A model generated the notes under the pieces. That model searched no databases, was not told where the DNA came from, and worked only from the letters and a program-made list of their open reading frames with translations. Of a stretch of 61,569 nucleotides of DNA, positions 58,197-61,180 are shown piece by piece. Made by a program: the position numbers and the translations under genes. Every line of letters begins with the position of its first letter. Position 1 is the first letter of the stretch. Source of the DNA: Pseudorhodobacter sp. E13 (lineage in GTDB: Bacteria > Pseudomonadota > Alphaproteobacteria > Rhodobacterales > Rhodobacteraceae); assembly GCF_003991405.1 (NCBI RefSeq), contig NZ_RPEN01000146.1:1-61569 (forward strand), read 5' to 3'.

Positions 58197-59068
58197 TTGC
58201 GGGGCTGACTTTGGTGCTTGCCCTCGAAGGCAGTGCGGCATCCCTGTCTGCGGATAATTTCATCGCTGCGACGGTCTGGCGCAGCACCGACCCAAAGCTG
58301 GGCGGCCTTTCGGGGCTGGAGCTTTCGGCCGATGGGCGGAGCTTTACCGCGATCAGTGATCGTGGCGGCTGGACCACAGGCAAAATCACCCGCGATGCGA
58401 CAGACCGCATCACCGGGCTGGAGGCGCGCGCGGTTGCTTTGATGAAAGACACTAACGGGCAGCCCTTTGAGACGCCGCGCGGCGATAGCGAAGGCTTGGC
58501 GGTTGGCCCCAAGGGTGAAATCTATGTCAGCTTTGAAGGCAAAGGTGCTGCGCGGGTCATGCGCTTTTCCGATCTTGCAAAACCGGGCAAAGACCTGCCG
58601 CGCGCGCAGGAATTCAAGCGCCTGCGCCTGAACGCGGCGCTGGAGGCTTTGGCCATTGACGCGCAAGGGCGGCTTTACACCTTGCCCGAAAGCCCGCGTG
58701 AGGCCGGGCCCTATACCGTCTTTCGCTATCAGAACGGCCGCTGGGACAGCCAGCTTTCCCTGCCGCGGGATGCAGAGTTTGAGGCGGTGGGCGCCGATTT
58801 CGGCCCCGACGGGCGGTTTTACCTGCTGGAGCGCGCCTTTCACGGCGTTTTCGGCTTTGCCAGTCGCGTGCGCAGTTTTGCGTTGGGTGCGGATGGGTTT
58901 GGCGATGCGCGGCTGGAAATGCAAAGCCACACCGGGCGGCATGACAATCTGGAAAGCATTGCCCTGTGGCGGGATGCGTCAGGGGGGCTTCGCATGACCC
59001 TGCTGTCGGATGACAATTTCTTTTGGGCGCAGCGCACCGAAATCGTCGAATATCGCGTGCTTCCTTGA
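58169..59068 (+). CDS. Esterase-like activity of phytase family protein
   Basis: A 299-residue exported protein (signal peptide LALIAGLTLVLALEGSAASLSA) with a beta-propeller-like fold. GLSGLELSADGRSFTAISDRGGW, GDSEGLAVGPKGEIYVSFEG, NAALEALAIDAQGRLYTLPE and HDNLESIALWRD mark the phytase-like/DUF4394-type domain named 'esterase-like activity of phytase'. The catalytic activity is untested; a phosphoesterase with Ca2+ is possible. The start lies inside mepA. Confidence 0.88.
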   Translation: MQKRSRLALIAGLTLVLALEGSAASLSADNFIAATVWRSTDPKLGGLSGLELSADGRSFTAISDRGGWTTGKITRDATDRITGLEARAVALMKDTNGQPFETPRGDSEGLAVGPKGEIYVSFEGKGAARVMRFSDLAKPGKDLPRAQEFKRLRLNAALEALAIDAQGRLYTLPESPREAGPYTVFRYQNGRWDSQLSLPRDAEFEAVGADFGPDGRFYLLERAFHGVFGFASRVRSFALGADGFGDARLEMQSHTGRHDNLESIALWRDASGGLRMTLLSDDNFFWAQRTEIVEYRVLP

Positions 59069-59155
59069 CAAACCCAGGCCGCAGGGCGTAAGGCCCGCGC
59101 GTCCCTGATAAGCAGGGGCCAAGTCTCCGCGACCTTGATAAAACGGAATTATAAC

Positions 59156-59779
59156 ATGACCCGATCGCTGATCCCCGGCATTCTTGCCATGGCTGCCATT
59201 GTTGTGGCCTCTAATATCCTTGTGCAACATCTGTTCGGCCAATGGCTGACATGGGGCGCATTCACCTATCCGCTGGCCTTTCTGGTCACTGACCTGATGA
59301 ACCGCTTTTACGGGGCCGCTGCGGCGCGCCGGGTGGTTTTGGTGGGCTTTGCCGTCGGGCTGGTTTGCTCCGTCATCGGCACCCAGATCATGGGTGAGTT
59401 CGGGCCGCTGGTCACTTTGCGCGTGGCGCTTGGCTCTGGCCTTGCTTTCCTGACCGCGCAAATGCTGGATGTATCCATCTTTGACCGCCTGCGCAGTGGA
59501 AGCTGGTGGCGCGCGCCGCTGGCCTCGACGCTTGTGGGTGCCAGTGCCGATACCGCGATCTTCTTTACGGTGGCGTTTTCGGCGGGTCTGGTTTGGCTGG
59601 AACCCGGCAATGATGTGGCTTGGGCGAATGAGGCCTTGCCGCTGTTGGGCCTGGGGCCTGTTGCGCCGCTTTGGGTGTCTTTGGCGGTGGCCGATTGGGG
59701 CGTCAAGCTTTTGCTCGCTATTTTGGCATTGGTGCCTTTTCGCATGGCTGTGCAAAAATTTCACACAACACATGCGTAA
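59156..59779 (+). CDS. Queuosine precursor transporter (VUT family, YhhQ-like)
   Basis: A 207-residue membrane protein with six transmembrane segments: ILAMAAIVVASNILVQHLFG, WGAFTYPLAFLVTDLMNRFYGAAAARRVVLVG, and LASTLVGASADTAIFFTVAF. The VUT pattern YPLAFLVTDLxNRxYG is that of YhhQ/QPTR, which imports queuine precursors such as preQ0/preQ1. The 87 bp upstream hold GC-rich inverted segments, but no clear preQ1 riboswitch. It is followed by the small RNA/tiny-ORF unit at 59.8 kb. Confidence 0.9.
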   Translation: MTRSLIPGILAMAAIVVASNILVQHLFGQWLTWGAFTYPLAFLVTDLMNRFYGAAAARRVVLVGFAVGLVCSVIGTQIMGEFGPLVTLRVALGSGLAFLTAQMLDVSIFDRLRSGSWWRAPLASTLVGASADTAIFFTVAFSAGLVWLEPGNDVAWANEALPLLGLGPVAPLWVSLAVADWGVKLLLAILALVPFRMAVQKFHTTHA

Positions 59780-59785
59780 AAACTT

Positions 59786-59791
59786 TTGACA
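59786..59791 (+). promoter_or_regulatory. -35-like TTGACA before the tiny-ORF unit
   Basis: TTGACA lies 44 bp upstream of the extended Shine-Dalgarno. A good -10 at the normal spacing is not visible; the CCCCCTAT at about 59813-59820 could reflect an alternative (heat-shock type) sigma factor but the spacing is long. The promoter is tentative. Confidence 0.35.
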
Positions 59792-59834
59792 AACACAAAA
59801 TCTGTGGCAGGCTCCCCCTATCGGCAACGTATTT

Positions 59835-59851
59835 GAAAGGAGGTGATCCAG
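59835..59851 (+). promoter_or_regulatory. 17-nt perfect complement of the 16S rRNA 3' end
   Basis: GAAAGGAGGTGATCCAG is fully complementary to CTGGATCACCTCCTTTC, the alphaproteobacterial 16S rRNA 3' terminus as I recall it. The core GGAGG is 7 nt before a GTG start (59851). Normal Shine-Dalgarno sites pair over 4-7 nt. Confidence 0.85.
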
Positions 59852-59907
59852 TGTCTAGAGTGATGTTGGAGAGAGGTGTCGGGACAGTCAGGCGGGGTGT
59901 TTGCTAG
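59851..59907 (+). CDS. Tiny ORF of 18 codons, possible leader peptide
   Basis: A GTG start directly after the extended Shine-Dalgarno opens a frame reading MSRVMLERGVGTVRRGVC, closed by TAG 59905-59907. The peptide is basic and ends in RRGVC. No family is recognised. The very strong ribosome-binding site suggests that translation, or ribosome capture, matters more than the peptide amount. Downstream come GGGG-CAGT-CCCC and CGGT-AAA-ACCG hairpins, a CTCCTT at about 59964 that could pair with AAGGAG of the Shine-Dalgarno, and a terminator. ATG 59863 in the same frame is an alternative start. Confidence 0.6.
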   Translation: MSRVMLERGVGTVRRGVC

Positions 59908-59978
59908 GGGCAGTCCCCGGTAAAACCGAAGTTTGATTGGGCTTGTCATCCTAACTGGCCCATCTCCTTGGAACTCGG

Positions 59979-60006
59979 AAAGGGTTGCCCGCAAGGGTAA
60001 CCCTTT
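59979..60006 (+). terminator. Terminator with GCAA tetraloop closing the tiny-ORF unit
   Basis: AAAGGGTTGCCC and GGGTAACCCTTT form a 12-bp stem (one G-T pair) with a GCAA loop, followed by CTCCATTTT. It ends a transcript of about 150-200 nt starting near 59.8 kb, and lies before the convergent nagA 3' end. Confidence 0.8.
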
Positions 60007-60058
60007 CTCCATTTTACGGCCCTGCGCCATGCAACGGCCCCTGCAATGCCCGGCGGCG

Positions 60059-61180
60059 TTACAGGGCAACGCCCCCCCACCAGATCTGCGAAAGTTGCCA
60101 GTCGCGATTCAGATGCACCAGATCGGCGCGGCGGTCGGGGGCCAGATGGCCAAGACTGCCCCCCATCCCAATCAGCTTTGCCGGGGTGGATGTAACCATC
60201 GCCAGCGCCTTTTCCGGTGCCAGCCGCGCATCCTGCACCATGACCGACAACGCCTTGTCCAACCGCAAGTCGGCCCCGGCCAAAGTGCAATCTTCCAGCG
60301 TCAACCGCCCGGCATCGCGGCGGATACGCCTGCCCCCCAGCACCATTTCCGTATGGTCGGTGCCCGCAAAGGCCATGCAATCCGAAACCAGAAACAACCC
60401 GTCGGGCCGCGCGGCCATCGCCAGCCGCAAAACGGCAGGCGCGACATGAATACCATCGGCGATAAGGCCTGCGGGCAGGTCGCTATCCAGCACCGCCCCC
60501 GCAAGACCCGGCGCGCGCGCGGCCATTGGGGCCATAGCGTTGAACAGATGGGTCGCGCAGCCCGCCCCCGCCGCGATATAGGCCATCGCCTCGTCATAGC
60601 TGCACTCGCTATGGCCTAGGCTAACCAGAACCCCTGCCTTCACCAGCGCACGCACCTGATCCAGCGAGACCGAGCAAGGGGCCAGCGTGACCATGAGAAC
60701 GGGGAGTTTTTGCGCAGCCGCCAGCAGGATCGCCAGATCGTCGCTGCCCATCGGACGGATAAGTGCGGCGTCATGCGCGCCTTTGCGGCGCGGGTCCAGA
60801 TGCGGGCCTTCCAGATGCAGCCCCAGAAACCCCGGCACATTGGCCTGTGCCGCCTCGATCCCGGCTTGGATCACTTGGGCGGTGGCTTTGGGGGTATCGG
60901 TAATCAGCGTGGGCAGGACACCCGCACAGCCCAGCAGAATATGTGTGGCGCAAATCGCGGCAATGCGCCCGGCATCCGCTTGCCCATCCAGCATGATGCC
61001 GCCACCGCCGTTGACCTGCAAATCCACAAAGGCCGGGGCCAGAACCCCACCATCCAGCACCACATCGCCACGCAGTCCGGTTTGCACCCCCACAATCAGC
61101 CCATCCTCGACGATCAGGGCCAGATCGTCGTGCAATTGGCTGCCATCAAATACCTGCGCACCAGAAAAGACCTGTCGCAT
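60059..61180 (-). CDS. nagA: N-acetylglucosamine-6-phosphate deacetylase
   Basis: The 373-residue amidohydrolase converts GlcNAc-6-P to GlcN-6-P. Typical: APAFVDLQVNGGGGIM, HLEGPHLDPRRKGAHD (metal Glu and substrate His), VSLGHSECSYDEAMAYIAAGAGCATHLFNAM (metal His residues), GIHVAP and catalytic Asp in LVSDCMAFAG. The N-terminal metal site is VDLQVN rather than HxH, as in NagA. The start at 61180 (MRQVF) follows GGGGGAT; a TTG five codons upstream has no advantage. No nagB or transporter gene is next to it in the window. Confidence 0.94.
   Translation of the reverse strand: MRQVFSGAQVFDGSQLHDDLALIVEDGLIVGVQTGLRGDVVLDGGVLAPAFVDLQVNGGGGIMLDGQADAGRIAAICATHILLGCAGVLPTLITDTPKATAQVIQAGIEAAQANVPGFLGLHLEGPHLDPRRKGAHDAALIRPMGSDDLAILLAAAQKLPVLMVTLAPCSVSLDQVRALVKAGVLVSLGHSECSYDEAMAYIAAGAGCATHLFNAMAPMAARAPGLAGAVLDSDLPAGLIADGIHVAPAVLRLAMAARPDGLFLVSDCMAFAGTDHTEMVLGGRRIRRDAGRLTLEDCTLAGADLRLDKALSVMVQDARLAPEKALAMVTSTPAKLIGMGGSLGHLAPDRRADLVHLNRDWQLSQIWWGGVAL

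Follow-up and report, generated by a model that had tools for sequence, protein, structure and literature searches.

A conserved tiny mRNA with a 17-nt Shine-Dalgarno sequence, presumably rreR, as a candidate 30S-responsive RNA switch

Near the end of the window, by which we mean the whole stretch of 61,569 nucleotides that was analyzed, a gene resembling queuosine-precursor transporters (Pfam Vut_1; 59156-59779) is followed directly, on the same forward strand, by a compact unit. The unit begins with promoter-like boxes at 59786-59813, namely TTGACA (59786-59791) and CAGGCT (59808-59813) separated by a 16-nt spacer; their placement is conserved, with the consensus TTTGaca...GTG.CA..cT in 140 sequences compared, and we infer that they are the -35 and -10 elements. 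An extended Shine-Dalgarno sequence, GAAAGGAGGTGATCCAG (59835-59851), offers 17 nt of complementarity to the 3' end that 16S rRNA has in Alphaproteobacteria. Its final G is already the first base of a GTG start codon (59851-59853), so that 16 nt lie upstream of the start, and this GTG, 7 nt past the GGAGG core, opens a frame of 18 codons, MSRVMLERGVGTVRRGVC, which ends at 59907 with its TAG stop included and is rreR-like. The elements named in a preliminary description of the locus are where it had placed them. Farther downstream lies CUGGCCCAUCUCCUU (59955-59969), a near copy, or mimic, of the 16S tail that includes CTCCTT at 59964-59969, and then an intrinsic terminator (59978-60007) with a T-rich tail and the GCAA loop described before, whose stem has 13 bp in the model rather than the 12 bp first given. 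Downstream of the related loci a terminator-like hairpin was found in 282 of the 287 searched, some of these being weak or misplaced. Because promoter-like boxes and a terminator are both present, a short transcript is supported. The most likely explanation of the unit is a stand-alone small mRNA, some 180 nt long and served by a promoter and a terminator of its own, as part of an overall reading that we hold to be probable by a little.

The preliminary description held that no standard gene explains this unit; we take it instead to be rreR, a small gene of 18 amino acids known from the Rhodobacter/Roseobacter lineage and described together with rreB. In the account of Hahn et al. 2017 (RNA Biol 14:1353, doi 10.1080/15476286.2016.1256534), which PMC7298713 and PMC7217052 cite, rreB and rreR are small mRNAs that reportedly carry a 17-nt Shine-Dalgarno sequence complementary to the 16S end and a GTG start, the rreR ORF having 18 amino acids in the Rhodobacter/Roseobacter lineage and 14 in Bradyrhizobium, and the rreB mRNA is said to co-sediment with 30S subunits and to be translated weakly. 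The two genes are reportedly defined by at least 16 nt of complementarity to the 16S 3' end directly before the start codon. Measured against the alphaproteobacterial 16S end, the unit in the window has these 16 nt plus the first base of the GTG. Its ORF length of 18 codons is shared by 176 of 184 related sequences. Bradyrhizobium loci have 14 codons and those of Rhodobacterales type 18. The window's unit and rreB/rreR have in common what is presumably a small stand-alone mRNA, a 17-nt Shine-Dalgarno sequence, a GTG start and, in the Rhodobacter/Roseobacter lineage, an ORF of 18 amino acids. The gene is therefore already known: it is a conserved alphaproteobacterial gene for a tiny mRNA that would grip the small ribosomal subunit unusually tightly. 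What the present analysis contributes is a candidate two-state mechanism, built on a helix P1 and the 16S mimic.

The 17-mer of the extended Shine-Dalgarno sequence is unique in the 3.88 Mb assembly, where 4.5e-4 occurrences on both strands would be expected by chance, and within the window the next-longest match to the anti-16S string has only 9 nt, so we reject a chance match. The pairing partner is presumably the alphaproteobacterial 16S 3' end, CTGGATCACCTCCTTTC. We used this general end rather than the organism's own, since a search that was positive in 9 of 14 control genomes detected a 16S gene neither in the assembly of the window nor in any of 12 relatives. In 146 aligned relatives, positions -13 to -6 of the Shine-Dalgarno sequence are invariant and those on to -1 almost invariant; the exception, position -5, is A in 103, G in 40 and C in 3, and the G keeps a G.U pair with 16S. 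Model energies put the 17-nt pairing at -31.0 kcal/mol compared to -10.7 kcal/mol for a 7-nt site. These energies, together with what is reported of rreB/rreR, are consistent with the earlier suggestion of a ribosome-binding small RNA.

The unit is single-copy and conserved, a point that the preliminary description proposed to check. Searched in 248 genomes, each standing for one genus, a 33-nt pattern with up to 3 mismatches allowed was found in 168, while the reversed pattern used as a control gave 0. The same pattern is present in 6 of the 9 genomes of the window's own genus; 13 of 61 relatives contain an exact 22-mer, and 24 of the 289 genomes examined from the class an 18-mer. The genomes G480 and G353 each match the unit twice, the others listed once or not at all. 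When genomes carrying names were scanned, at least 118 stretches matched; among the 80 matches listed, 74 bore alphaproteobacterial names, 4 were named only as Proteobacteria or Pseudomonadota and 2 were gammaproteobacterial, and the named loci include Ruegeria, Defluviimonas and a Dinoroseobacter MAG. Most of the family genomes examined possess such an RNA, whose affinity for the 16S tail would be maximal.

What is conserved in the ORF bears on the simplest alternative, namely that this is an ordinary small-protein gene whose product is the 18-amino-acid peptide, with the Shine-Dalgarno sequence and the folds only setting the level of translation. Among 184 distinct related sequences, selected with a nucleotide pattern that spans just the first codons, frame, start and length are kept: 176 have 18 codons, ending at one place in three different stops (TAG 75, TGA 70, TAA 31), and 183 start with GTG. 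Codon 7 is GAG in 183 of the 184 and codon 6 is TTG in 173, and the two alternative frames are open over the same span in about half of the 18-codon sequences (+1 in 97 of 176, +2 in 94 of 176). Calculated from 130 of the 173 distinct ORFs, pN/pS amounts to 0.87 for codons 2-5, 0.45 for codons 6-12 (LERGVGT) and 1.02 for codons 13-18. The low value in the middle segment would fit selection on a peptide, but the synonymous sites of codons 6-12 are constrained as well (pS of 0.24 versus 0.52), as RNA pairing would cause, and the last third of the peptide appears free of constraint. From the length and stop counts and from pN/pS by segment we conclude that translation to a fixed stop seems to be kept, but not the end of the peptide; toward the N-terminus, much of the conservation seems to act at the level of the RNA. 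Passages of PMC7217052 describe the 14-amino-acid peptide of Bradyrhizobium japonicum and the 18-amino-acid peptide of Dinoroseobacter shibae as having been made and studied, but table both as unstructured. Moreover, apart from MS the peptides of other lineages have little in common. We therefore regard the small-protein reading as unlikely, though it is the best of the alternatives.

The 185-nt RNA folds with -80.3 kcal/mol (z -5.21), which none of 200 dinucleotide shuffles equaled. In place of the two small hairpins of the preliminary description, the minimum free energy (MFE) fold contains long-range pairings, 59837-59845 with 59961-59969 and 59848-59852 with 59954-59958. The Shine-Dalgarno sequence would thus be closed by the near copy of the 16S tail, in agreement with the proposed pairing of CTCCTT with the Shine-Dalgarno sequence. 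Taking a site as closed when it is under 0.2 unpaired, we find the predicted site closed in 93% of the main (Rhodobacterales-type) group, from which 45 sequences were sampled, versus 26% of 135 shuffled controls, and in 10 of 10 sequences of the group with 14 amino acids (controls 50%). In two further groups, labeled MSH and MSS, it is closed less often than in controls (13% versus 36% and 0% versus 16%), and a mixed set of other sequences differs little from controls (47% versus 37%). The pairing of the Shine-Dalgarno sequence with the mimic is a prediction of the model, the near-invariance of the former leaving no room for covariation. The motif C[AG][CT]CTC was found past the ORF in 160 of 181 relatives of the main group, compared to a mean of 21.7 and a maximum of 28 in shuffles; in the 3' parts of MSH (4 of 52) and MSS (1 of 17) it was at shuffle level. 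A second complementary element, YTGGA within the ORF, which can pair with UCCAG of the Shine-Dalgarno sequence, is enriched in the main group (175 of 181) and in MSH (36 of 52). Such pairing is not general, since no enrichment was seen in the ORFs of MSS (3 of 17) or of the 14-amino-acid group (0 of 10, with 10 of 10 after the ORF).

Could the mimic serve other mRNAs instead? One could imagine a small RNA that acts in trans, using the CCUCC in its 3' element to bind the Shine-Dalgarno sequences of other transcripts, with its own Shine-Dalgarno sequence as the lock. The strong enrichment of the motif in the main group would suit such a role, and the small RNAs SisA-D of Caulobacter are said, in a passage of PMC12559287, to use an anti-Shine-Dalgarno motif. 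However, the element is missing from the 3' parts of MSH and MSS and is buried in both of the folds predicted here, so that we rate this reading as somewhat less likely again than a small-protein gene, although the mimic may act on other mRNAs.

The preliminary description also imagined a stress sensor in which CTCCTT opens or closes the Shine-Dalgarno sequence; the closing is borne out by the model, in the proportions given above, and the opening by heat is not. An RNA thermometer, freeing the paired Shine-Dalgarno sequence on heating, is very improbable, since the predicted probability that the site is unpaired rises only from 0.001 at 37 C to 0.004 at 50 C, and because the modeled site is still closed at 50 C, a switch driven by the ribosome fits better than a heat sensor.

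Equally improbable is a leader or attenuator RNA that controls a neighboring gene through translation of the peptide, in the earlier version by sensing a charged tRNA at an RRGVC end. A short ORF followed by a terminator, next to a conserved neighbor, might recall such an arrangement, but the terminator ends the unit, the peptide end (codons 13-18) is not conserved, and the conserved neighbor is upstream. The next downstream ORF in the window runs the opposite way, and among 47 evaluable loci the downstream ORF is co-directional in 21, so that its strand is not fixed (30 more loci, with an ORF overlapping the unit, were set aside). Of the 74 main-group loci with enough DNA, 68 have the transporter gene directly upstream in the same orientation, and so does none of the 80 loci that belong to the MSH, MSS and 14-amino-acid groups; among the 25 main-group loci listed, 71-127 nt separate the end of the transporter match from the start codon. 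This adjacency is conserved in the main group for no evident reason.

We return to the ribosome-driven switch, for which the central element is helix P1. Its 5' arm, GAGU in codons 3-4 (59858-59861), would pair with ACUC (59973-59976) just before the terminator, an assignment that rests on covariation and on the model. In a covariation test of our own design, with a tree-based null and an unanchored alignment of 155 sequences (14,878 column pairs), the only significant pair with E up to 0.05 was 59860-59974, that is, the first base of codon 4 and a base shortly before the terminator. The pair is GC in 107 sequences, AT in 46 and GT in 2. On a tree made without the P1 columns 16 of its 19 changes are double, and on a tree of the neighboring transporter protein (55 loci; 34 of 52 nodes supported above 0.8) all 8 of 8 changes are double. 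An anchored run, from which 9 of the 155 sequences without the CTCC anchor were left out, gave the same pair, and the other pairs up to E 2 were not base pairs; the anchor pattern favors C or T at column 107, without tying it to column 28. On the sequences compared, our analysis thus shows conservation of the unit, of the ORF length and of the 16S mimic as well as covariation within P1.

Other lineages offer P1 candidates made of other bases: UCAUUGUC/GACAAUGG, CAAUGUC/GACAUUG, CACCG/CGGUG, GUGAGAUU/AAUCUCAC and AUGAGAUU/AAUCUCAT, some of them not adjacent to the terminator call. When the pairing of a sequence's own arms was ranked against pairing with arms from other groups, the rank was 0.88 for the main group, 0.99 for MSH, 0.82 for MSS, 0.63 for the 14-amino-acid group and 0.75 for the mixed set, and shifting the 3' segment by 20 or 40 nt abolished the excess for own arms. 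The own-arm rank within groups was only 0.58-0.60 for most and 0.75 for the mixed set. In a first self-versus-cross pairing test of the main group, codons 2-7 (rank 0.51), the Shine-Dalgarno sequence and codons 6-13 showed no signal; an empty segment invalidated one row (energies near +594). In the same test, codons 13 to the stop pair much better with their own following stretch than with those of others (rank 0.83), which hints at another hairpin, variable in sequence and perhaps covarying, at the stop codon.

How could P1 and the closed resting fold belong to one RNA? P1 crosses the pairing of the Shine-Dalgarno sequence with the mimic, and the folding model makes it depend on the state of that site. 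Among 164 main-group sequences (19 of 183 having been left out by quality and length filters, and 32 of the 164 offering no 4-bp P1 candidate), P1 has a probability above 0.5 in 2 when folding is unconstrained and in 112 when the Shine-Dalgarno sequence is held unpaired. For the 45 sampled sequences the numbers are 1 and then 37, compared to 5 and then 32 of 135 controls with shuffled interiors. In the window's RNA, freeing the site yields in the model exactly P1, together with the mimic paired at 59963-59967 to GGAGA (59868-59872) inside the ORF. For MSH and MSS, P1 is predicted without the trigger in 29 of 41 and 8 of 12 sequences, and in the 14-amino-acid (Bradyrhizobium-type) group it is predicted in 1 of 9 even with the site free. 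Since MSH and MSS are untriggered and the 14-amino-acid group gives no support, we limit the switch to the window's group, P1 itself being wider.

We thus propose the following picture. At rest, the 3' mimic would lie on the Shine-Dalgarno sequence and keep the site closed, until a free 30S subunit, the presumed trigger, invades; it could do so because the 17-nt pairing outweighs the cost of opening the site, 10.9 kcal/mol in the model. Once the 16S tail occupies the Shine-Dalgarno sequence, the released mimic is predicted to re-pair with codons 6-8 and P1 to form where the mRNA channel of the 30S subunit would be. With P1 in that position, the subunit would presumably be held but slow to start. 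Occasional translation would then read a peptide whose sequence hardly matters, and the RNA would bind and report, or buffer, free 30S subunits, its purpose presumably being titration or sensing. Such a switch would explain why an extreme Shine-Dalgarno sequence need not give high expression. The comparisons suggest refolding on capture of the ribosome, and, taking sequence and model together, we consider a 30S-responsive switch in the rreR small mRNA slightly better than an even bet; the sensing or buffering of free 30S as its purpose is our hypothesis. As the two folds cross, a pseudoknot may also hold both helices at once. The observation made in the preliminary description is confirmed, and its interpretation is partly supported. 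Since the predicted P1 fold is tied to the bound tail, it makes directly testable the idea that an RNA lets bacteria sense or buffer their free 30S subunits. Extended Shine-Dalgarno sites that pair with more of the 16S tail than usual, close to the start codon, are also described in Staphylococcus aureus, where they affect start selection; however, the passages of PMC13009471 that describe them concern ordinary mRNAs and contain nothing resembling a compact, self-closing unit.

When 59000-60800 was scanned permissively against Rfam, the one informative match was to RF01867 (CC2171, a Caulobacter small RNA), with 28.4 bits and E 0.0012, model positions 1-159 lying at 59827-60006. The same model, over positions 1-159 and with E up to 0.01, matches 53 of 61 family genomes. 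All of these matches are below the gathering cut-off of 75 bits, which neither the window nor any of the 61 genomes (0 of 61) exceeds, while among 14 control genomes Caulobacter vibrioides and Deinobacterium chartae have matches, one of them over the cut-off. Thus the match to a known Rfam element, which the preliminary description had set as counting against its reading, exists throughout the family, but below the cut-off. The window has the full-length architecture of the family, including the long-range helix after the start and the terminator. It shares with CC2171 the order of elements, an identical GAAAGGAGGUGAUCCAGUGUCU in the alignment and a long-range helix running from just past the start codon to just before the terminator. 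It differs in the sequence of P1, the arms of which Infernal left unaligned in the window, and Rfam files CC2171 as a small RNA rather than an mRNA. CC2171 is named in a part of the Rfam 15 paper among the families refolded with R-scape, and it appears in a table of predicted small RNAs of Mesorhizobium huakuii; these two passages, from the only papers on this RNA among those retrieved for CC2171/RF01867, draw no link to rreB or rreR. If the unit is indeed a riboswitch for the 30S subunit, then rreB, rreR and CC2171 would be one family, and an uncharacterized Rfam family would be linked to a described small mRNA. This wider proposal, in which 30S is the ligand, its capture drives a second, maintained fold, and free 30S is reported or buffered across Alphaproteobacteria, we put forward tentatively, as possible but rather doubtful.

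Two minor observations concern similar sequences elsewhere. The loci L089 and L121, one of which is labeled SAR92 (gammaproteobacterial), contain what looks like a shorter version of the unit, in which CACTGGGAGCC and a terminator-like hairpin come within 35 nt after AAAAGGAGGTGATCCAGTGTCTA; in an exact search of 114 genomes of the gammaproteobacterial class only the starting genome matched. At L082, L110 and L122, the first two of which are Azospirillum, the extended Shine-Dalgarno sequence is found with an ATG start before longer ORFs, which resemble small exported proteins (MSHGASPVVAALFGLA...).
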